From the NCBI GenBank assembly GCA_038843015.1, contig JAWBSH010000005.1, positions 1 through 64,000 of the forward strand: 64,000 nt of DNA, written 5' to 3'. Positions within the stretch are counted from its first letter, which is position 1. Every line of letters starts with the position of its first letter. This DNA comes from Zestosphaera sp. (GTDB taxonomy: Archaea > Thermoproteota > Thermoprotei_A > Sulfolobales > NBVN01). The notes under the pieces were generated by a model, which saw nothing but the letters and a program-made list of their open reading frames with translations, was not told the origin of the DNA and did no database searches. Shown here one piece after another: positions 1 to 15,741 of this stretch. The translations under genes and the position numbers were made by a program.

Positions 1-355
1 GGCTTAAGACTGCCGTCACTCCTCCAGCACCAGTCACAGTACCTAGTGAGTTCGTAGTAGTAGCCACTCCCGCAACTCTCGAGCCGTCAGTGAGTGTTAT
101 GTCAACTCCTTCTAGCCTGAGGTCTCTGGGGAGTAGGTTCTGGACAGTCAAGTACAAGACTAGGTTATTCCCTGCTACAGCACTGCTGTACCTAGCTATC
201 GCCACGTCTGTAGTAGGCATCTTAGCCATAGTACTGTCTAGCCAAGCCTTAATACCGAACGCGGCTACTACCGCAACCAGTATTAGTATTAGAGCAACAA
301 CAACCTCGCTAACGCCCCTAACCCAGAACCTGCGAGACCCGGCCGTATTAGACAC
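1..355 (-). CDS. Type IV pilin-like secreted protein, partial (3' part beyond window)
   Basis: The minus strand reads open for 118 codons from a GTG at 355 and continues past the left edge. Residues about 8-34 form an archaeal class III (prepilin) signal: basic residues, then RG followed by VSEVVVALILILVAVV, then a Gly/Ala-rich hydrophobic helix. Cleavage would fall after the Gly. The rest (TDVAIARYSSAVAG, then a Leu/Val-rich strand and LTDGSRVAGV) looks like a pilin globular domain. A TATA box lies about 26 nt upstream, so the mRNA is probably leaderless. The opposite strand also has an open frame here, which I read as a shadow because only the minus strand gives this signature. Known of the family: processed by PibD-type peptidase and assembled in pili or surface complexes. 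Confidence 0.72.
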   Translation of the reverse strand, partial: MSNTAGSRRFWVRGVSEVVVALILILVAVVAAFGIKAWLDSTMAKMPTTDVAIARYSSAVAGNNLVLYLTVQNLLPRDLRLEGVDITLTDGSRVAGVATTTNSLGTVTGAGGVTAVLS

Positions 356-376
356 CTCACTAGAAAGAAAAAACTC

Positions 377-385
377 CTTATAAAG
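377..385 (-). promoter_or_regulatory. TATA box of the pilin-like gene
   Basis: CTTTATAAG on the minus strand, centred about 26 nt before the GTG at 355. That spacing puts the transcription start at or next to the start codon, the usual crenarchaeal leaderless arrangement. Confidence 0.5.
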
Positions 386-450
386 ACTCACGAAACAGCG
401 AGAGAGGAGAGATGAGGGAGTTATTGTGGGTAATGAATTAAACCTAAAAA

Positions 451-2499
451 CTAATCTTTCTTAGGCCTCAAGCCACGTAAGACGAGAAACGCAGTCACTA
501 AGACTACAGGGATGACAACCCACACAGGCTCAGGTATCGGCACAGGACTCTGAAGCTCTGGATACTCGCTACCAATCAAGTACAACACGAGACTACCCCC
601 TTCTAAAGCAACGATAGCTATCTTTCCTGAACCACCGTCCTCACCACCAAGAATCTTAACATGGAGCGGCGTGTTATGAGTATTTCGATCCATCCCGACA
701 GGAAGTACCCAAGGCTCTAGAACACCCCCAACGCTATTATAGAAAGCCACGACAAGATTCCTCTGCCCAGTATCAAGCTCGTTAACGGCATATGGAATAA
801 TGAACTTCCCCGAGCCAAGGTCGTAAGCAACCTTTACGAAGCTAGCGTTCCTGTCAGCAAGTGTGAGAACACCAGAACTAGAACCACTTACATCGATAAC
901 GCTCAAGTTAGCCCAACCTAAAGTATTCCAAGCAACAAGCCAGTGAGTCTCATTACTCGCAATCCAAGGATAGAAAGTAGTACTAGAGCCAACACTAACT
1001 AATGAACTCCTAACGACCCCAGGAGTTTCTTGCGTAAGATCGACTACAGCATAAATCAGAGAAGTACTAGATTCATTATAGACTGTCAACACACGCCCAC
1101 CACTCAATAATCCAGCAGTATACATGGGGTAAACATTATAGTATGAATAGTATGAAGAACCGATAGCATATGTGGTCGCGCTAGGACCTTGATCGCCTTC
1201 ACGACAATCAACACAGTGAGGGCTCGGCACACTTAGGTCGTATCCGGTCGTAACATTACCGTAAATCCCGACCATATCATGTGCTGTATTATCACCACCG
1301 AGATTATACCCTCTAGCAACTATGTAGAACCTCCTAGTAACCTCATCAAATAGTAAACCACCCATCACATCAACACCTATCTTCGGCACAGGCGACCCAC
1401 TATAGATTACAGCGTATTTATACTCGCTTGTATATGAGGGCATGCTGTTAAGTAGGTTAATAGTATACCTACCTATAGTTGAGGTCTGAGAGCTATAACC
1501 CACTACCCACCACTTACTACCATCTTGGTGTATGTAGTGAGTGACTGTCGGGTGGTATTGGTTATAGCCGTGGTATATGTGTTGAGGTGTCGTAGGCTCT
1601 AGGTCTGGGTCTACTGGCACGTAACTATAAAGAACTGTCCGATCTTTACTTGTCGTGCCGACTCTCCTAGTGTAGTTTGTCCATACTAGGAGGAATCCTG
1701 TCTCATTCGCAGCTATATCTATCATCCCCCTAAACACGTTCGCGTACTTGCTCTGTGTTGGGTCTGAACTATATTTGTCTGGTCCGTACCTATACTCCCT
1801 CACTATATCACCGTCTTTACTCACAACGTATATTCTCAATGCCCAGTCGCCGCCATATTCAGAGAAAGCTACGCCTAAGTATTTGTGGTCTGGTGTGGTA
1901 GCGACTCTAACACCCCAAGATGTCCCATAGCTTATATCTCCTGTGTAGAGCGGTATTTTATTAATGGTTGGTAGTTTTTCTTTTTCTTTCTCGTATGTTA
2001 TGTAGAGACTCCACTTGCTAGGGTTGAAGTCGTTCTCAAGATCTTCTATGTTCGCGTACTCGTTCTCGACCATCCACTTATTCACGTTTAGTAGGGTAGT
2101 GTCGTCTACTCTTACGTAAGCTACTGCTATTACTCTGCCGTACTCGTCGACAGCGTTTTCACTCTTATCTATATCTAAAAGAACTACACCACTATAATTC
2201 GCGAGTAATCCTATCAGAGCCTCCCTAGCTTCAGCTCCTTCAGGTTGGTTCAGCTCGGGCGCGTCTATGTCAGCTAACCTAACCACGGTTCTGTAGCTTC
2301 CCTGAACATATACTGGAGGTGAGATGTGGATCGTGTCTCCATCTACTACGTGAGTTACTACTACTCTTGCGTGAGGGAAATCATCATGTATTCCCACACC
2401 ATCTGAGGCCTTAATTGGTTTTGGTATTATTGCTGTCGTTAATGTTAAGAAGATTATGACTAGTATTAGTAAGCCGAGTTTCTTATTCAATGATGTCAC
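451..2499 (-). CDS. Secreted, membrane-anchored staphylococcal-nuclease-like protein
   Basis: This 682 aa protein starts with a Sec signal or anchor (residues 8-30). Residues about 44-170 are an SNase/thermonuclease domain that keeps the catalytic set: D53/D55 in VVDGDTI, R74, D79 and E82 in RLADIDAPE, and R122 in DEYGRV. Known of the family: Ca-dependent phosphodiesterase acting on DNA and RNA. A roughly 480-residue extracellular region follows, rich in Tyr/Ser/Thr, Gly and N-glycosylation sequons with WxxxW-like strands that suggest a beta-propeller. It ends in PEP, one transmembrane helix (about 654-675) and a basic tail. The nuclease would face the outside of the cell. The GTG start at 2499 opens directly into the signal peptide. 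It lies between two clusters encoding exported proteins. Confidence 0.75.
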   Translation of the reverse strand: MTSLNKKLGLLILVIIFLTLTTAIIPKPIKASDGVGIHDDFPHARVVVTHVVDGDTIHISPPVYVQGSYRTVVRLADIDAPELNQPEGAEAREALIGLLANYSGVVLLDIDKSENAVDEYGRVIAVAYVRVDDTTLLNVNKWMVENEYANIEDLENDFNPSKWSLYITYEKEKEKLPTINKIPLYTGDISYGTSWGVRVATTPDHKYLGVAFSEYGGDWALRIYVVSKDGDIVREYRYGPDKYSSDPTQSKYANVFRGMIDIAANETGFLLVWTNYTRRVGTTSKDRTVLYSYVPVDPDLEPTTPQHIYHGYNQYHPTVTHYIHQDGSKWWVVGYSSQTSTIGRYTINLLNSMPSYTSEYKYAVIYSGSPVPKIGVDVMGGLLFDEVTRRFYIVARGYNLGGDNTAHDMVGIYGNVTTGYDLSVPSPHCVDCREGDQGPSATTYAIGSSYYSYYNVYPMYTAGLLSGGRVLTVYNESSTSLIYAVVDLTQETPGVVRSSLVSVGSSTTFYPWIASNETHWLVAWNTLGWANLSVIDVSGSSSGVLTLADRNASFVKVAYDLGSGKFIIPYAVNELDTGQRNLVVAFYNSVGGVLEPWVLPVGMDRNTHNTPLHVKILGGEDGGSGKIAIVALEGGSLVLYLIGSEYPELQSPVPIPEPVWVVIPVVLVTAFLVLRGLRPKKD

Positions 2500-2760
2500 A
2501 CCAATTAAATTATTCGCGTCCTAAATATAAAATTCTAACTACGTAATCATCTGAGTTAATGTTTGAGTAGTGATTGAGTTTGGGTGTTAATTAATTGCCT
2601 TAAGCGCGTTCTTTAGTGTCTAGTCTCTTTTTGTGGTCTTTGATATGGTCTGCCAAGATTGAGTGCTTTTCTAGTCTTGATTGATTTGCTAGCTCTTATT
2701 TTATGGTGTGCTGGGCTGTTGCGTGTGGTATTCTCTTACTGACTTAGAGTTCTAACTGAC

Positions 2761-3933
2761 CTAGTAATTATGTGGGGGTTGAGGACGTGTCGAGATTTCT
2801 TTAACTTCTGTAGTGCTTAGTAAGTGTTCTAGTGTTAAGTCGTGCTCGTCTTCTCTTGCTGAAGTTCTTTCTTCAGAGACTTCACAAACATCAAGACACT
2901 TGATGTTTTCTTCCCCGTACTTCACGGTGAGTGGTGTGTTTGAGTAAATCTTCAGCGTGTGTGGGTTCTTGAGAGAAGGCTCTATACTTACTATAGTCTC
3001 TCCAGAATCTATTATGCCGCACCAGAGCCCCCTACAGCACAGTACCCCGTCTATAGTAGCCCAGCAATCAACTCCTAGGTCTTTAGGTACTCGCAAGACT
3101 TCCTTAAGTCTCAAGTCAATAACTCTCAGGAAATCTCCGAGGTCATCAACTACTAAGTTCCAGGCAGACGCGCTGCCTGCTACGCTCACGTAATCTACTA
3201 GAGCTCCCGAGTCAAGAATCTTCAGCTTCTTTCCTTCTATGAAGGCGGGTAGCTCGTGAATGAAGCCTGCGAAACTACCTCCAGACCTGACTAAGGGCTT
3301 CAGTTCTTCTTCGTCGACGTAGAGGAGCCACTCGCCAGACCTGAGTAGAGGCCCTCTAGGAGTGCTCGCCACGGCCTCGGCAGGAAACCCTACCTCGTAA
3401 GTCTTGCTCTCCTGAATAATTATAGACCTGCCATCACTGAATACGCAAGAACCTATCTTGAAGCCTAGCGAGCACTTAATAGGCTTCTCCTCGTAGGCGT
3501 CGCGGTAGACTACGTAGTCATCATAGCTAGCTAAAATCACGTGAGCGCTACTCCCGTCATGAACTGCCACGACTAAAGCTCCCGGCCTTGCCTCACTAGC
3601 TAGGGTCTCACCAACAAACACGTAGTCTCTAGTGATTACTTTATAGTTTTTAGCGTCTCTCACTATAGCTACCCCGTGTTCTGGGTGTGAGAAGCCTGCC
3701 AATGCAGAACACTCGACGAGGTCTCTAGAAACGTGTACGGGATTCTCACACGAGTAGCTGGCTTCTGCGAACCCCCTGAAGCCGGCTCGGGAATTTAAAG
3801 TTATTTTAGGCTGTATCTTTAAGCCCTCAACAACTAATGTCTCTAAGTCGTAGGGGGAGAGAACTACTCTACTACCTCCTAATTCGGTGAGGTCTATGAA
3901 GTGCTTTACTGTGTAGGGTATCACGACCTTCAT
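2761..3933 (-). CDS. Conserved-looking soluble protein of unknown function (390 aa)
   Basis: I do not recognise the family. The open frame extends upstream to 4098, but I place the start at ATG 3933: there ATGA overlaps the stop of the 86-aa membrane-protein gene, and the upstream 55 codons are the out-of-frame shadow of that gene. The 390 residues have no signal peptide or membrane helix. They show repeated short beta-strand blocks (GSRVVLS, GALVVAVHDGSSAHVILASYDD, GRSIIIQES), 12 or so cysteines, and an acidic Glu/Asp-rich tail; a propeller-like fold is a guess. Translational coupling to the membrane protein implies it works with it, perhaps as a cytoplasmic partner of the pilin/VirB4 cluster. 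Confidence 0.6.
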   Translation of the reverse strand: MKVVIPYTVKHFIDLTELGGSRVVLSPYDLETLVVEGLKIQPKITLNSRAGFRGFAEASYSCENPVHVSRDLVECSALAGFSHPEHGVAIVRDAKNYKVITRDYVFVGETLASEARPGALVVAVHDGSSAHVILASYDDYVVYRDAYEEKPIKCSLGFKIGSCVFSDGRSIIIQESKTYEVGFPAEAVASTPRGPLLRSGEWLLYVDEEELKPLVRSGGSFAGFIHELPAFIEGKKLKILDSGALVDYVSVAGSASAWNLVVDDLGDFLRVIDLRLKEVLRVPKDLGVDCWATIDGVLCCRGLWCGIIDSGETIVSIEPSLKNPHTLKIYSNTPLTVKYGEENIKCLDVCEVSEERTSAREDEHDLTLEHLLSTTEVKEISTRPQPPHNY

Positions 3934-4190
3934 TTCTTGAGTGACCTCTTCCTGAACGTGATTAACTCCACTAGAGACAGTAGCGTAGCTAGTATGAGAG
4001 ACTCTAAAGAAAGTGATTTCTTCGGGTACGCGGCCGAAGCTAGCGCTAGAGAAGTCGCGAGTACTGAGAGCCCGAGTAGCTGGGGTGTTCCAGACCACAG
4101 AGCTCTCCAGAGTATGAGGAGCGAGAAGAATAAGTAAGTCATGTGCTTTAGTCTGAGAGGCCCGAAGACTCTCTCGTTAATTAACGACAC
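3930..4190 (-). CDS. Small two-helix membrane protein (86 aa), VirB3-like in size and layout
   Basis: The protein has a short basic cytoplasmic N-terminus followed by two hydrophobic stretches (about residues 17-55 and 60-76) and ends in a strongly basic RKRSLKK. Small two-helix proteins of this shape accompany VirB4 ATPases in conjugation-type systems (VirB3 class) and in the archaeal Ced DNA-import system. Sequence identity to those is not visible to me, so this is an inference from size, topology and the nearby VirB4-type gene. Its stop overlaps the start of the next gene by ATGA. The start GTG at 4190 sits only one base after a GGTGA motif, so initiation may be leaderless. Confidence 0.55.
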   Translation of the reverse strand: MSLINERVFGPLRLKHMTYLFFSLLILWRALWSGTPQLLGLSVLATSLALASAAYPKKSLSLESLILATLLSLVELITFRKRSLKK

Positions 4191-4235
4191 ATCACCTATA
4201 GTGACGAACTCGTGATATCTTGCTTCATAACTCAG

Positions 4236-5249
4236 TTAACTCACCTCAACTAACTCTATATCGAGTAGTATAGTAGGGTTTTGAGGGTACTGCCCTGGAG
4301 GCAGGCTCAGAGCGAGCGCGAGCACTACTAGAGTGCCTGCACGAGTTATTGACTCACTAATAGTGAAGCTCACTAAGTCAACCACTACCGACTTCCTGAG
4401 ATACTCTCTAATGATGACTTTCTTGAGAGGTTGTGTAGCGTGTGTCGCGTAACTCACGTGATGTCTGTAAGTTATTACGTCTACTACTCGTGAGTTAGGT
4501 GGTAGTAGTAAGTAGTAGAGTGTTATGTTTGCCGGGACGTTAAAGTTGTTTTCAGCGAATATTATGCTCAAGGTTATGTTAACTGGCTCCTCAACCCACA
4601 CGTAAGCCCCTATTAAGTCGGCGTATAGTGCTGGCGCGTTCACGACTATCCTACGATCGTTGACGAACGTTACGTCTAGCGTGCCTACACATTCTGTGTT
4701 GAGGTCGACGTCACACACGAGTTCGCTGGGTGTAGTGTTTGTTGCTAGGCTCACGTACTTGGGATGACCGTTTACGAAGCTCTGATACCTCACTGCAGGT
4801 AGTAGAGTCGCGCGCAACTCAATACTTGTTTCTTTTTGCGGAGACCAAGTAGCTAGGTTGCCGTTTTCTGTAATTACTCCCAAGATGTAGTTGTCTTCAG
4901 TGACGAGCCTGGCTAGAGCTCCCTCAACTATCTTGACCCAAGAAGACGGGGCTAACTCAACTTCTACTAAGCTACTGTATACGACGCTCGCCGCGTTATA
5001 GATCACTATGGTCTTGATTGAGGTAGCGATTGTTGAGGTAGCGTATATCGCTTCTTCTCTGGGGACGTACTTGAAGAATATGTTTTCTGCTTTCTTGAGA
5101 GACTCTATCTGCTGACTCTCCGTGAGGTAGTTTTGTTGTTGACTCATGCTGTTTAGTGAGTTTATGTAGAGTGAGGCGTAAGCTACTAAAATTAAAGCCA
5201 TGACTATGGAAGTATACAAACCGGCTTCACCGACTCTGGACTTAAGCAT
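4236..5249 (-). CDS. Exported protein with N-terminal membrane helix, pilin-like (337 aa)
   Basis: I choose ATG 5249 because a GGTG motif precedes it by 6 nt; an in-frame GTG at 5261 would add four residues. The N-terminus is basic (LKSRVGEAG) followed by one long hydrophobic helix (TSIVMALILVAYASLYI), then a long Gln/Glu-rich segment and an extracellular region with many sequons and beta strands. A second hydrophobic segment (LVVLALALSL) is near residue 310. A glycine-terminated basic leader before the helix resembles prepilin leaders but less cleanly than its neighbours. It lies 28 nt after the 125-aa pilin-like gene and 45 nt before the 86-aa membrane protein, so it is probably in one transcription unit with them. 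Confidence 0.6.
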   Translation of the reverse strand: MLKSRVGEAGLYTSIVMALILVAYASLYINSLNSMSQQQNYLTESQQIESLKKAENIFFKYVPREEAIYATSTIATSIKTIVIYNAASVVYSSLVEVELAPSSWVKIVEGALARLVTEDNYILGVITENGNLATWSPQKETSIELRATLLPAVRYQSFVNGHPKYVSLATNTTPSELVCDVDLNTECVGTLDVTFVNDRRIVVNAPALYADLIGAYVWVEEPVNITLSIIFAENNFNVPANITLYYLLLPPNSRVVDVITYRHHVSYATHATQPLKKVIIREYLRKSVVVDLVSFTISESITRAGTLVVLALALSLPPGQYPQNPTILLDIELVEVS

Positions 5250-5289
5250 TGAAACACCCACTAACTAGGGGGAAGTCTTTATAAGAGTC

Positions 5290-5667
5290 TCACGAGACCC
5301 TCAAGACGTTAACTACTTGATTCCCGACGATCAGGGAGTGCCAGTTCCTCGCTGGTAGGATGGTTAGGTAGCACGTCTTAGGCGCTAGAGAATTAACTAA
5401 TTTCGCGCGGCTACCTAAGTCATCTAAGACTTGAATGTCTTCGATTATTCTGAGTCCGTAGTTACACACTATGAGGAGGTCTTTGTCGTTATTCTTGAGT
5501 AGGTAGGCTGCGAGAGTTGCTGGCTGAGTCGGGGTGACCTGACTCCTTACCGCGTTAGTGTATTCCCTAACTCTACTTACTAGGATTGCTGAAGCAGGTA
5601 CTACAACGGAGAGTAGTAGGAGAGCAACTACTAGACTGCTTAAGCCCTTCACTAAAGACCCCACCAA
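5290..5667 (-). CDS. Small type IV pilin-like protein (125 aa)
   Basis: The N-terminus, SLVKG followed by LSSLVVALLLLSVVVPAS, fits an archaeal class III signal peptide: a basic residue, Gly at the cleavage site, small/hydroxyl residues, then an uninterrupted helix. The roughly 95-residue mature domain includes a two-cysteine pair (C68 in IVCNYG and C97 in KTCYLTI). It is the first gene of the minus-strand run that diverges from the VirB4-type gene, with only 42 bp between the two starts, so they share a control region. Start TTG 5667 or GTG 5664 is possible. It may be a minor pilin or pilus tip component. Confidence 0.6.
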   Translation of the reverse strand: MVGSLVKGLSSLVVALLLLSVVVPASAILVSRVREYTNAVRSQVTPTQPATLAAYLLKNNDKDLLIVCNYGLRIIEDIQVLDDLGSRAKLVNSLAPKTCYLTILPARNWHSLIVGNQVVNVLRVS

Positions 5668-5709
5668 CTATTGAGTCTTGCTTATAAGGACTTCCACTCT
5701 TATTAGGGG

Positions 5710-7512
5710 TTGCGATTGAAGTGGTTTAAGCTAGAGGGAGTTAGCTTCACTATATTATCAGACATCGAGAGAGACTCAGTGCTTAAAGAGTGGGAAGCTC
5801 TCATATCGTCAGTTAAGTCGGGCGTGATTCTTGCTAGGAGGAGAGTCGAGAAATTCAGGTACGGGAAACACGACTTCATAGTCGATTATACAGACTTCTA
5901 CTTAGGCTTGAGTGACTCGCTAAAGACTTCCATACCCTACTTTAGGTCCGTTGAGGTAGGGCCTCCCCCAAGACCTGAGGTCGCGGGTCTCGCGGGTGTC
6001 AAGACTCTGTACCTGAGTGACGGGTCTTACGCTAGAGTCTTGATCGCTTACCGCTACCCCTCAACTCTCCCCGAGTCTTTCCTCTACACACTCTTTAGTG
6101 ATGTGTGGGAGGTCGCGCTGATTTTCAGGTCCGTGTCTAGGCCTAAGGCTCTGAGCCTAGTAGAGTCTGCCGTTAAGAGGAAGTCTGCTTTCGCGAGTCT
6201 TGTTGAGGCTGCTCACGAGGTTGAGGCTCTCAGAGAGCTTGGTGAGAGAGTCATGCGCGGGTCTGACTTGATAGAGTTTTACTTGCTGGTAGTCATCAGA
6301 GCTCCTGAGTTGAGAGTCTTGAACGAGGTTGAGGAGAGAGTCAAGACCTTGCTTAAGGGGTTTGGCGTGGAGGTTGAAGCCCCGCCTATTCAGAGAGAAC
6401 TGTATGAGTTCAAGTTATGCGGTCTTCTAGCATGTGTTGAGAAAACCTACACAGACACAGCTAGTCTAAAACCGCTATTCTTTTTAGTAGATGAGGAGAT
6501 GCATGACGACGGCGGAGTCTTTCTAGGTTTTTCCGGGTCGGGGAGTCCCGTGATGCTGGATTTGTGGAGTAAGCCTAACTTGAATTTCGTGGTTTTAGGT
6601 GTGTCAGGTTCTGGCAAGTCTATGAGTGTTAAGCTGTATCTTAAGAGGTTAAGAGAACGTGTTGAGAAAGTCACTTACGTGGGCATAGACCCTGAGTCAG
6701 AGTATACTAGAGTTGCGAGAAGCTTTAAGGCATCACCTATAGAGATTGACGAGAGCCAAGAACTAGGTCTCGACCCAATAAGACTACTTCAAGCTAACTA
6801 CCTAGACATAAGTCAAGTGTCTGACTTACTCTCAGAGGTCTACGCTATACCTAAGAAGCTGCAGGGGGTCTTAAGAAAAGAACTCTTCGTCAAGAGTGAC
6901 TCAGTCTCAAACATTGAAGAATTCGTAGCTAATCTCAGAGACCCTGTCTTGAGTAAGTTGCTTGAGGGAGCCGTAGCTCCCCCAGACATACGCGTGTTTA
7001 GGGGTGCGCCGCCAAAGCTCTCCAGCAACGTAGTCTTCGGCTTGAAGAGCTTGAGGAGCAAGAGGTTGAAGATTCTTGTCTCAGCCCTCATATCTACTTA
7101 CGCGTACAACACACTCTTGACTAAGACTCCCGGGAAGAGCGTGTTTTTCGTTGATGAAGCCTGGTTATTCGTGGAGACTCCGAGCATATTAGGACTATTC
7201 GAGAACCTGGCTAGGAGGGGCAGGAAGCAGGGGGTAGTCTTCATATACGTGACTCAAAGAGCTGAAGACCTTGTTAGGAGTCCTCAAGAAAAGACTATAC
7301 TTGAGCAGTCAGCTACTGCCTTACTCATGAGGCAGGAGCCTGAGGGGAGAGACGCGTGTAAGAAGATATATAAGCTCTCAGACGCTGAAGCAGACTACTT
7401 AACTCAAGCGCCAGTAGGTTCAGGGATTCTTAAAGCTGGGAGAAAAAGAATAACTATTCAGGTGATTCCCACGCCTGAAGAGCTAGAGACCTTCTCTACG
7501 TCCGCGTGCTAA
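5710..7512 (+). CDS. VirB4/CagE-TraC-type AAA ATPase
   Basis: The 600 aa protein has an N-terminal domain (about 1-270) of the kind that docks VirB4 ATPases to their membrane partners. A RecA-like motor follows: Walker A GVSGSGKS at 297-304, Walker B VFFVDEAWLF with D482/E483, and a downstream ARRGRKQGVVFIYVTQ segment that is the usual arginine/Gln motif of VirB4/HerA motors. Known of the family: powers pilus biogenesis and substrate transport in type IV secretion, and (as CedB) DNA import in Sulfolobales. Here it diverges from genes for two pilin-like proteins and a small two-helix membrane protein. No relaxase or coupling protein is visible in the window, so conjugation as such is not supported. 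Start TTG 5710. Confidence 0.82.
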   Translation: MRLKWFKLEGVSFTILSDIERDSVLKEWEALISSVKSGVILARRRVEKFRYGKHDFIVDYTDFYLGLSDSLKTSIPYFRSVEVGPPPRPEVAGLAGVKTLYLSDGSYARVLIAYRYPSTLPESFLYTLFSDVWEVALIFRSVSRPKALSLVESAVKRKSAFASLVEAAHEVEALRELGERVMRGSDLIEFYLLVVIRAPELRVLNEVEERVKTLLKGFGVEVEAPPIQRELYEFKLCGLLACVEKTYTDTASLKPLFFLVDEEMHDDGGVFLGFSGSGSPVMLDLWSKPNLNFVVLGVSGSGKSMSVKLYLKRLRERVEKVTYVGIDPESEYTRVARSFKASPIEIDESQELGLDPIRLLQANYLDISQVSDLLSEVYAIPKKLQGVLRKELFVKSDSVSNIEEFVANLRDPVLSKLLEGAVAPPDIRVFRGAPPKLSSNVVFGLKSLRSKRLKILVSALISTYAYNTLLTKTPGKSVFFVDEAWLFVETPSILGLFENLARRGRKQGVVFIYVTQRAEDLVRSPQEKTILEQSATALLMRQEPEGRDACKKIYKLSDAEADYLTQAPVGSGILKAGRKRITIQVIPTPEELETFSTSAC

Positions 7513-7816
7513 GCCTTCTCAACACTCGGTCGAGCACTCGAGCTCGTTCCTCCTTAACCCACTTCAAGCCCTTACTAGTGATTAAGTACTTAGCTGGCCT
7601 CCCACTATTGTGTCTCCTCAGATAACCCAGTTCTTCAAGTCTTGCAAGGACCCTACCCACCTCTGTTCTCACTGCGTGATTATCTAGCTCTAAAACCTCA
7701 ATGACTTTCTTGACGGTAATAGTTATTGAGTTTCCCGAGCTACTCCTTAACTTATTGTAGATTGTTTCTCTCACTGCTCTAATTATCTCATGTTTTGAAG
7801 TCTTTACATACTTCAT
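7496..7816 (-). CDS. Winged-helix DNA-binding protein (106 aa)
   Basis: Residues about 25-95 form a winged helix: VKKVIEVLELDNHAVRTEVGRVLARLEELGYL is a helix-turn-helix with recognition helix, and RRHNSGRPAKYLITSKGLKWV is the wing followed by a basic helix. The C-terminus is strongly basic. Its 3' end overlaps the 3' end of the VirB4-type gene by 17 bp, in convergent orientation. Upstream, a small HTH-like ORF overlaps its start by 29 bp. A regulator of the adjacent cluster is likely, but the target is not shown by the sequence. Confidence 0.7.
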   Translation of the reverse strand: MKYVKTSKHEIIRAVRETIYNKLRSSSGNSITITVKKVIEVLELDNHAVRTEVGRVLARLEELGYLRRHNSGRPAKYLITSKGLKWVKEERARVLDRVLRRLSTRT

Positions 7817-13627: not shown

Positions 13628-13771
13628 ACCAAACACACTAACCATACATCAAAGTTTTTACTTAAGCAACACTAACAAATCACTTCATAGTTGCCTCCTA
13701 TTAACCTAACAGGACCCAGCAAGGAAACACATCCAGAATCGAGGTTAGCATTATTTCTTTATTTAATTTAT

Positions 13772-14764
13772 TTAATTAATTAAGGAACTCAGGCTTTCAT
13801 GCCGTATGCACCTCACGTAATGAGTTTTTGTCACTTTAGTTAATTCTGGTTCCTCAGCCACACACTCCCTTATTGCGTAGGGACATCTATTACTTAACCT
13901 ACACCCACTAGGAGGATTCATAGGGCTTGGAGGCTCTCCAGACAGCATTATCTTCTTCTTTAGTTTTTTGATGCGAGGGTCTGGTTCCGGTATTGAAGAG
14001 AGTAACGCTAGCGTGTATGGGTGTCCGGGCTCGCTGAATATCTCGTCTGACGTCCCCACCTCCATTATCTTACCTAAGTACATGACGGCCACGTAGTCGC
14101 TCATATACCTAACTACAGAGAGGTCGTGTGTCACCAGTAAGTATGTTAGCTTGAGTTTTTCTTTGAGTTCTACCAAGAGGTTTAATATCTGAGCCTGTAC
14201 TGAAACGTCAAGTGCTGAGGTAGGTTCATCTAACAAGAGTAGTTTAGGCTCTATACTTAAAGCTCTAGCTATAGCTACTCTCTGAGCTTGACCACCACTT
14301 AAACTAGGCGGGTGCTGATTAGCTACTGCCTCCGGAAGTCCTACTAGAGCTAAGACCTCAGCTACTCTCCTATATATTTCTTCCTTACTCATTTCAGTAT
14401 GTGTTTTCAGTGGCTCAGCTATCAAATCCTTAACCCTCATCCTCGGGTTGAGAGAGAGGTAGGGGTTCTGAAACACTGCTTGAACGTCCCTCCTAAACCA
14501 CTTAAGTTCTTTACCTTTAAGTCGCGTCACGTCTCTACCATCAACACGTATCTCACCAGATGTGGGCTCAGTAAGTTTCAATATACACCTAAGCGTGGTA
14601 GTCTTGCCAGAACCCGACTCACCGACAAGCGCGAAGACAGTGCCTTCAGCGACCTCAAAAGATACTCCGTCCACCGCCCTCACGTACCCTACAACCCTCC
14701 CGAAAAGGCCTGTCTTTACTGGGAAGTACTTAGTAAGCCCGTTGACTTCAAGTAACGAACTCAT
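13772..14764 (-). CDS. Peptide/nickel-type ABC transporter ATPase (OppF/DppF class)
   Basis: The 330 aa subunit carries Walker A GESGSGKT, Q-loop VFQNPYLSLNPR, signature LSGGQAQR, Walker B LLLLDEPTSALD and switch His in VTHDLS. Its C-terminal region has the oligopeptide-binding ATPase extension with a Cys cluster (GCRLSNRCPYAIREC), which holds an Fe-S or zinc site in this family. ATG overlaps the stop of the upstream ATPase by ATGA. It is the last gene of the five-gene importer operon. OppF-type subunits pair with an OppD-type subunit on the inner face of the membrane. Confidence 0.9.
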   Translation of the reverse strand: MSSLLEVNGLTKYFPVKTGLFGRVVGYVRAVDGVSFEVAEGTVFALVGESGSGKTTTLRCILKLTEPTSGEIRVDGRDVTRLKGKELKWFRRDVQAVFQNPYLSLNPRMRVKDLIAEPLKTHTEMSKEEIYRRVAEVLALVGLPEAVANQHPPSLSGGQAQRVAIARALSIEPKLLLLDEPTSALDVSVQAQILNLLVELKEKLKLTYLLVTHDLSVVRYMSDYVAVMYLGKIMEVGTSDEIFSEPGHPYTLALLSSIPEPDPRIKKLKKKIMLSGEPPSPMNPPSGCRLSNRCPYAIRECVAEEPELTKVTKTHYVRCIRHESLSSLIN

Positions 14765-15741
14765 TTTCGCTCACCACCGTAAAGGACGCAAGCTACTCGC
14801 CTCACACCACCCACATAAGAATACTTAGGTAGTGAAACACTACACTCAGGTGTGGCAAACTCGCACCTGTCAACAAAAGGACATCCAGCAGGAGGATTTC
14901 TTAAGTCAGGTAGCGTTCCAGGTATGTAGCTCAGCCTGCCCTGAGTCTTAGTTATTGTTGGAATAGCCTTAACTAGCTTTGTTGTGTAGGGGTGTAAGGG
15001 ACTCAGGATTACGTCTTCTGTAGGGCCTTCCTCAAGTAGGACGCCCGCGTACATTACTGCAGTCCTGCTACAGACTTCCCCAGCTATCCCTAAATTATGT
15101 GTTATGAGGATTAAAGTGAGGTTTAGCTCTCGTTTCAGAGAGTTAATTAAGTCAAGTATTTGAGCCTGTGTAGTCACGTCGAGCATGGTGGTGGGCTCAT
15201 CTGCTATCAATATCTTCGGGTTTGTTGAGAGAGCAGCCGCTATAGCCGCCCTCTGTAGCATTCCGCCAGACAGTTCGTGAGGGTATGAATTAAGGATTCT
15301 AGCTTGGTCTGGTAACCGAACCATCCTTAGTAATTCTGCAGCTCTCTTGACAGCTTCTTCTCGATTCATGTTGAAGTGATGTCTTAAGATGTCTGTGAGA
15401 TGCTCACCTACTGTGAAGAGGGGATTGAAGGTAGTAGCAGGGTCTTGAAATATCATTGAGATTTCCTTACCTCTATATTTGGTTATTTCTGGTGTTTTTA
15501 GTTTGAGTATATCTACCCCCTTGTAAAGTATAGAGCCGCTGGCTACTACGGCATTCTTAGGTAGTGATAGGGATATGGCTAGGCCAAGTGTTGACTTGCC
15601 AGACCCTGACTCACCAACGACGCAGAGTGAGTCACCAGCACTAACTTCTAGACTAACATTCTTCACTGCTTTGATGATGCCCTCAACAGTGTGGTAATGT
15701 ATTGTCAAGTCACTTACTCTGAGTAGCTTTTCCTCGCTCAT
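14761..15741 (-). CDS. Peptide/nickel-type ABC transporter ATPase (OppD/DppD class)
   Basis: The 326 aa subunit has Walker A GESGSGKS, Q-loop IFQDPATTFNP, signature LSGGMLQR, Walker B ILIADEPTTMLD and ITHN for the switch His. The C-terminal oligopeptide extension is present (NPPAGCPFVDRCEFATPECS). It is 3 bp downstream of the permease gene and overlaps the OppF-type gene, so the two ATPases are translationally coupled and form the heterodimeric motor. Confidence 0.9.
   Translation of the reverse strand: MSEEKLLRVSDLTIHYHTVEGIIKAVKNVSLEVSAGDSLCVVGESGSGKSTLGLAISLSLPKNAVVASGSILYKGVDILKLKTPEITKYRGKEISMIFQDPATTFNPLFTVGEHLTDILRHHFNMNREEAVKRAAELLRMVRLPDQARILNSYPHELSGGMLQRAAIAAALSTNPKILIADEPTTMLDVTTQAQILDLINSLKRELNLTLILITHNLGIAGEVCSRTAVMYAGVLLEEGPTEDVILSPLHPYTTKLVKAIPTITKTQGRLSYIPGTLPDLRNPPAGCPFVDRCEFATPECSVSLPKYSYVGGVRRVACVLYGGERK

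Follow-up and report, generated by a model that had tools for sequence, protein, structure and literature searches.

A conjugation-type secretion locus with its own type IV pilus genes, a probable resident DNA-transfer apparatus of a Zestosphaera genome

The window analysed here, the first 64,000 nucleotides of contig JAWBSH010000005.1 (C5), belongs to a 20-contig, 1.55-Mb archaeal draft metagenome-assembled genome (MAG) of Zestosphaera sp. (G000), whose named relatives are Desulfurococcaceae/Sulfolobales MAGs. It opens with a VirB4-type ATPase gene beside genes for pilin-like proteins. Our preferred explanation, to which we give a probability of about 0.7 as a whole, is that positions 1–7512 are one half of a single ~17-kb cluster that continues on contig C8, up to its right-hand end (~66.1–75.3 kb), and that this cluster joins a reduced conjugation-type type IV secretion system (T4SS) to a dedicated type IV pilus (T4P). 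The product would be a DNA-transfer apparatus descended from integrative conjugative elements (ICEs), now resident in G000, and kin to the Ced and Ted systems and to thaumarchaeal conjugative elements. The original prediction, made from the window's letters, had proposed a VirB4-powered surface or DNA-transport machine with prepilin-type pilins. All of the open reading frames (ORFs) it named are present in place, and the VirB4 gene with its pilin neighbours is conserved in other genomes.

A VirB4 motor and a second half of the locus on another contig

The 600-aa protein encoded at 5710..7512 (+ strand), divergent from a minus-strand run as had been described, carries Walker A (GVSGSGKSM) and Walker B (VFFVDEAW) motifs and is, judged by sequence relationships, a true VirB4 family member, neither HerA nor CedB. 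It matches AAA_10 (6e-12) and P-loop_TraG (5e-9) in Pfam, and the VirB4-like CD1110 family (3e-30), TraC (1e-21) and VirB4_CagE (3e-16) in NCBIfam, with far weaker scores for CedB and HerA (2e-4 each). The top PDB sequence match is the VirB4-like protein 4ag5 (2e-19), and the full-length VirB4 N-terminal region is conserved. In a VirB4 tree in which long branches were flagged, window-type proteins cluster with G161 (support 95), the proteins of Sulfolobus plasmids are nested among archaeal chromosomal VirB4s, and CedB, HerA-like and bacterial proteins fall outside the archaeal conjugation VirB4s; the phylogeny called for beforehand places the window protein with the latter and not in a HerA-only clade. 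The closest extrachromosomal VirB4s (37–39% identity) belong to conjugative plasmids of Sulfolobus, pING1 and pNOB8 among them. A CedB orthologue was rejected as a candidate: the best CedB score in G000 is 5.3e-6, below the NCBIfam cut-off, and among the tested genomes of genus g1 and families f8 and f9 no CedB exceeds that cut-off; the one genome that passes is G068, probably Sulfolobus acidocaldarius.

Base 1 of the window is a contig edge that interrupts a pilin gene (2..391, – strand). The ends of every G000 contig were read and then searched with profiles from the loci of relatives, and the remaining genes turned up at the right-hand end of C8 (locus L091). The last 127 bases of C8 are identical to the first 127 bases of the window and lie inside that one pilin gene, an exact overlap that would be the expected trace of a k=127 assembler. 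The C8 end matches profiles for VirB6-like (5e-159), VirD4-like (6e-290) and VirB2-like (2e-32) proteins as well as PilC (8e-135), PilB (7e-181) and a pilin (6e-20); the 3′ part of the interrupted pilin gene lies there too, along with a gene for a small secreted protein. The VirB6-like protein has 9 hydrophobic segments. Domains of T4SS coupling proteins are recognized in the VirD4-like protein, whose G038 copy matches VirD4-like CD1115 (1.5e-14) and CedD (4e-14). One relative has a T4P platform with a match to UpsF (1.3e-6), and a PibD/FlaK prepilin peptidase homologue is encoded elsewhere in G000 (C1:106390).

C8 and the window together hold five conjugation-type T4SS parts (VirB4, coupling protein, VirB6-like, VirB2-type and VirB3-type) and, on the T4P side, a T2SSE-family ATPase, a TadC-like platform and class III prepilins, with the prepilin peptidase in the genome. 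The idea that VirB4 takes the place of the usual PilB/GspE ATPase falls, since a PilB/ArlI-type ATPase is also part of the locus, on C8.

Linkage of T4P genes to virB4 across archaeal families

VirB4 orthologues (50–84% identity) occur together with its neighbours in 10 further genomes of 3 families, so that the co-occurrence on which the original prediction had staked itself was found; they are present in all five members of genus g1 and in families f8 and f9. The combined T4SS and T4P gene set recurs in G001–G004 and in both of these families, and the loci of G067 and G037 contain the same set in shuffled order. In the distant families f2, f3, f5 and f7 and in the same-phylum families f16–f18, most virB4 loci adjoin a T4P ATPase, often together with a polytopic platform-sized protein, prepilin-like proteins and a VirB3-like gene.

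We quantified this association by tallying all T2SSE ATPases in each genome and counting those within 15 kb of virB4. Outside the Sulfolobaceae, 15 of 17 virB4 loci have a T4P ATPase this close, against ~1 expected by chance, and at least one linked locus is found in each of the seven families; in the Sulfolobaceae the count is 0 of 4. The chance probability is ~3e-17 over loci, which are not fully independent, and ~4e-9 with one draw per family. In G038 the cluster is naturally split, its T4P half (L213:9259–12404) lying ~117 kb from virB4. No T4P ATPase or platform was found on Sulfolobus plasmids, which do have T4SS genes. Near a contig end of G146 we observed a relic of ~80 residues from the VirB4 C-terminus (L217:8959–9240), and no intact copy was found in that genome. 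Synteny of the flanks (an acetamidase gene near virB4 also in G057, a p66 gene near virB4 in G047) was discarded as no better than chance given the number of genes tested.

Traces of mobile elements and position of the locus

In G002 the intact locus adjoins a transfer RNA (tRNA) gene, tRNA-Ala(tgc). Relics of the 3′ end of virB4 (98.5% and ~79–88% DNA identity) occur at two further sites, adjoining tRNA-Val (L026, C2 ~307.4 kb) and tRNA-Ala(ggc) (L027, C1 ~499.1 kb), and the relic at tRNA-Ala(ggc) is accompanied by the N-terminal remnant of an SSV1-type integrase (PF07935, 0.0013, below cut-off). These relics would reflect an element that targets tRNA genes and has repeatedly integrated and decayed. 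No exact attachment-type repeat of at least 14 bp outside the tRNA was found at the intact element, so its borders are undefined. Downstream of virB6, G002 carries TFIIB-like and N6-adenine methylase genes (L061:10703–11362 and 13669–15000) that resemble ICE cargo.

The G000 locus is flanked by housekeeping genes on both sides. The window contains no tRNA gene, nor is there one within ~4 kb on the C8 side, and in the locus we saw neither the integrase and attachment sites of an ICE nor relaxase or replication genes. In G000 and G001 the locus adjoins spermidine synthase, and in G004 the same genes lie on short contigs whose pieces agree with this site. In G002 and G003 other genes follow spermidine synthase and the two flanks of the G000 locus are not neighbours, which makes the evidence for an empty site one-sided. 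The different placement in G000/G001 and G002/G003 implies that the locus moved within the genus and then stayed as species diverged; it occupies the same site in G000 and G001 despite a VirB4 identity of only ~84%.

Proteins encoded beside virB4

Directly divergent from virB4 lies the gene for a small class III prepilin (5290..5667, – strand, 125 aa), whose prepilin-like leader (..VKG/LSSLVVALLLLSVV..), noted earlier, is read directly from the sequence and whose homologues in relatives occupy the same position, divergent from virB4. Next to it, the 337-aa protein (4236..5261, – strand; 337–341 aa in the family), previously described as an anchored exported protein, is present but is more than that. 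An AlphaFold model of the 341-aa protein has a 55-residue helix followed by a beta sheet over residues ~10–140 (confidence score, pLDDT, ~67–89) and is unreliable beyond residue ~140. Foldseek gave a single match below 1e-3, to a type IV pilin of Pyrobaculum calidifontis (8fk7, 4.7e-4), and relatives have G/QAEV.. leaders. The N-terminal 140 residues thus model as a type IV pilin fold, and the C-terminal region is without a confident model. The third prepilin gene, 2..391, has the leader ..VRG/VSEVVVALILILVAVV.. and matches the archaellin/T4P N-terminal domain TIGR02537 (1.6e-4, above cut-off); it is a pilin gene as had been recognized, of which the window contains the 5′ part.

The two-helix membrane protein (3930..4235, – strand) can be called VirB3-like by its profiles and its match to PrgI. 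PrgI (VirB3) is the only recurrent Pfam match of the family, a weak one seen in three of nine members, with a best value of 0.021. The family profile matches the gene beside virB4 on pNOB8/pING1 (2e-8) and pRT2 (1e-11), and the family aligns with a wider archaeal family at an HHalign probability of 97.5%; the profile of that wider family in turn matches a Brevibacillus plasmid gene located between VirB2 and VirB4 (9e-6). The VirB3-like assignment therefore stands, and the predicted length of 86 aa, from the annotated ORF 3930–4190, probably does not: the N-terminus conserved in relatives (EARYHEF..) is encoded in the same frame as far upstream as 4235, which makes the GTG at 4190 a likely false start and gives a protein of probably 101–102 aa.

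The soluble partner of the original prediction (the 'sol' family; 2761..3933, – strand, 390 aa) turns out to be a truncated copy: its alignment to the family ends at residue 386 of 685, and the C-terminal end has been lost. Full-length relatives have ~600–690 aa, adding Ig-like domains and a C-terminal helix. The model of one is all-beta (mean pLDDT 79.8), and we interpret it as a beta-propeller with Ig-like domains after it; Foldseek returned a fold class (beta-propeller/Ig, template modelling (TM) score 0.1–0.2) and no specific relative. Neither 'sol' nor the VirB6-like proteins matched a Pfam or NCBIfam family beyond weak PKD or PamR hits.

At 451..2499 (– strand), in the place of the lost 'sol' end, is a gene for a secreted SNase-domain protein (2.7e-6) with a large C-terminal region and a C-terminal membrane anchor. 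The nuclease-like domain had been seen correctly, and we judge the protein to lie outside the machine. Its role as an extracellular DNA-processing subunit was rejected, as it replaces the 'sol' C-terminal part in G000 only; in G004 a pilin gene directly follows 'sol', with no SNase gene between them, and no homologue was found in any fetched locus.

On the other side of virB4, convergent with it and overlapping its end, a winged-helix protein (7496..7816, – strand; Penicillinase_R, 1.3e-5) is a possible regulator; it has homologues in L033 and L034, and the gene was seen only in the sub-clade of G000, G001 and G004. On C8, between virB2 and pilC, a gene that slightly overlaps virB2 on the opposite strand encodes a 324-aa protein (L091:10351–11325) with no Pfam match, conserved in G001 and G004 and possibly a further component of the machine.

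A proposed apparatus and competing explanations

In the apparatus that we propose, the T4SS half would consist of the VirB4 motor, the VirD4/CedD-like coupling ATPase, the VirB6-like pore, a pilin of VirB2/CedA1 size and the VirB3-like adaptor, and the T4P half of the PilB/ArlI-type assembly ATPase, a TadC/UpsF-type platform and the three class III prepilins, presumably processed by the PibD/FlaK peptidase of the genome. The T4P may bring cells into contact, the role of Ups pili for Ced in Sulfolobus. The VirD4-like ATPase would then load DNA, which VirB4 would push across the VirB6 pore and along a VirB2-type conduit, on the model of Ced/Ted and conjugation. Exchange of chromosomal DNA is the most likely purpose. 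The analysis itself shows the genes present, their homologies and linkage, the peptidase in the genome and the ICE-like footprints of a relative; the joint function, the coupling of the halves, DNA transfer itself and its direction are inferred.

Several points weigh against this proposal. The distribution is patchy, and within family f1 the locus is restricted to genus g1. The second virB4 locus of G034 (C33) is without T4P genes. The 'sol' copy of the window is short by ~295 residues, so the machine may be partly degenerate here. G000 is a draft MAG in which an assembly overlap is what joins C8 to C5. The VirB2 and VirB6 identities are the weaker ones, drawn from size, hydropathy, position and home-built profiles rather than curated families, and DNA as the cargo is suggested by homology to Ced/Ted and conjugative plasmids. 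Finally, as had been noted, no relaxase appears among the scanned ORFs of the locus and its flanks. A relaxase is not defining for archaeal conjugation-type T4SSs, because the archaeal conjugative elements described so far, thaumarchaeal ICEs and Sulfolobus plasmids, lack one as well (PMC6563490).

The same genes could belong to an active or recently active, self-spreading ICE whose T4P is a mating-contact pilus. The tRNA-adjacent copy of G002, the virB4 relics at two more tRNA genes with their SSV-type integrase remnant, the TFIIB-like and N6-methylase genes near virB6 and the variable position within the genus speak for it, as do the parts list and TFIIB shared with thaumarchaeal ICEs (PMC6563490). 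For G000, however, we consider this unlikely, though it deserves serious weight: in its locus we saw neither an integrase or replication gene nor a tRNA at the borders, the flanking genes are housekeeping genes, G001 shares the site and the G004 pieces agree with it, and persistence at one site through such VirB4 divergence indicates that the locus stayed put.

That the locus is two adjacent, functionally uncoupled machines, an adhesion T4P and a T4SS, is improbable. A pilus needs no more than T4P genes, the T4SSs of Sulfolobus plasmids do without such genes and the halves are 117 kb apart in G038, but linkage in seven of seven families, the intermingled gene order and the prepilin genes beside virB4 argue for one system, and Ups/Ced and PAPI-1 are known examples of such coupling. 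T4SSs that translocate proteins exist, and effector delivery or contact-dependent antagonism would fit the missing relaxase and the conserved secreted proteins of the locus that have no explanation; we regard protein export as a poor fit nonetheless, because the nearest kin are conjugative plasmids and Ced/Ted-type systems, the coupling protein is a conjugal one of VirD4/CedD type and no toxin-like cargo was seen in the locus. A HerA/NurA-type repair helicase lying beside pilin genes by accident has a negligible chance: DUF87 and HerA models also match 5710..7512, but VirB4 models score far higher, the VirB4 N-terminal region is conserved, the tree places the protein outside the HerA-like rows and its neighbours are T4SS genes. 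The HerA repair helicase was accordingly rejected as a candidate.

Relation to known systems and to the Ups pilus

The combination had been thought undescribed and odd, a view that is not supported. Thaumarchaeal ICEs encode VirB4, VirD4, VirB6 and VirB3 together with TadC, a FlaI-type ATPase, a prepilin peptidase and pilins, and all carry TFIIB genes (Krupovic et al. 2019, PMC6563490); in bacteria, T4SS-type transfer by the PAPI-1 island and IncI plasmids is aided by a co-encoded T4P (PMC12857230). T4SS+T4P modules are thus already known, and the G000 locus is a variant. It shares with thaumarchaeal ICEs the T4SS and T4P parts, the missing relaxase and, near the G002 locus, a TFIIB gene, but it looks chromosomally resident, is ~17 kb long and has no visible integrase, partition or replication genes, its peptidase is encoded elsewhere, it has an extra conserved beta-propeller/Ig protein, and its VirB4 forms a separate clade. 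From PAPI-1 and IncI it differs in T4P subtype, host and bacterial conjugation machinery.

Like Ced (with Ups) of Sulfolobales, the locus has a VirB4-family motor, a VirB6-like pore, a VirB2-size pilin, a CedD-like second ATPase and a T4P for contact; unlike Ced, it has a true VirB4 instead of CedB, T4P genes within the locus and a VirB3-like protein. By published description, Ted of Thermoproteales has in common with it a chromosomal VirB4, VirB6 and VirB2 set, but with HerA/ParA neighbours, not T4P genes (PMC9905601). The plasmids pNOB8 and pING1 carry VirB4, VirD4-like, VirB6-like, VirB2-like and VirB3-like genes; no T4P ATPase or platform was found on them, and the G000 locus has both. A 2025 paper had already reported VirB4 from Desulfurococcus and Fervidicoccales; it states VirB3 homologues to be absent in archaea and Ups genes to be absent in other Crenarchaea, and, finding no Ups genes outside Sulfolobales, it suggests that aggregation may be dispensable for DNA exchange there or that other appendages replace Ups (PMC11868833). 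Our literature search, with most subscription journals outside its reach, found neither an account of this T4SS+T4P cluster for Desulfurococcales nor a mention of the UpsE link described below.

In a T4P ATPase tree, some rows of which have unusual composition, UpsE of two Sulfolobaceae falls inside a 15-row clade (support 97/98) in which 12 of the 13 remaining rows are virB4-linked. Grouping UpsE with adhesive-pilus ATPases (AapE) is rejected (p 0.0007), the group having been picked after the tree was viewed. The ATPases of the window type form a long branch of their own, and their monophyly with the UpsE clade is neither shown nor rejected (p 0.46). The platform beside virB4 in G046 (L049:13344–17516) scores 220 bits against the UpsF model, versus 116 for a paralogue, which makes it the best UpsF relative outside Sulfolobaceae in our set and possibly direct kin of the Ups pilus; the best UpsF score in G000 is 5.6e-9 (34 bits, versus a curated cut-off of 400), so G000 itself does not qualify as having Ups. 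The link between UpsE and virB4 is a lead, no proof. We offer only tentatively, at less than even odds, the possibility that the T4SS+T4P composite was ancestral in this archaeal phylum, that the Ced and Ups pair of Sulfolobus is its split descendant, and that the Ups pilus came from a T4P which conjugative elements once encoded beside VirB4.

Set beside the 2025 paper (PMC11868833), the locus shows that T4SS loci in many archaeal families incorporate a dedicated T4P and a VirB3-like protein. It also ties the DNA-exchange machines of the hosts to conjugative elements, and provides a testable account of why Sulfolobus needs both Ced and Ups for one job.

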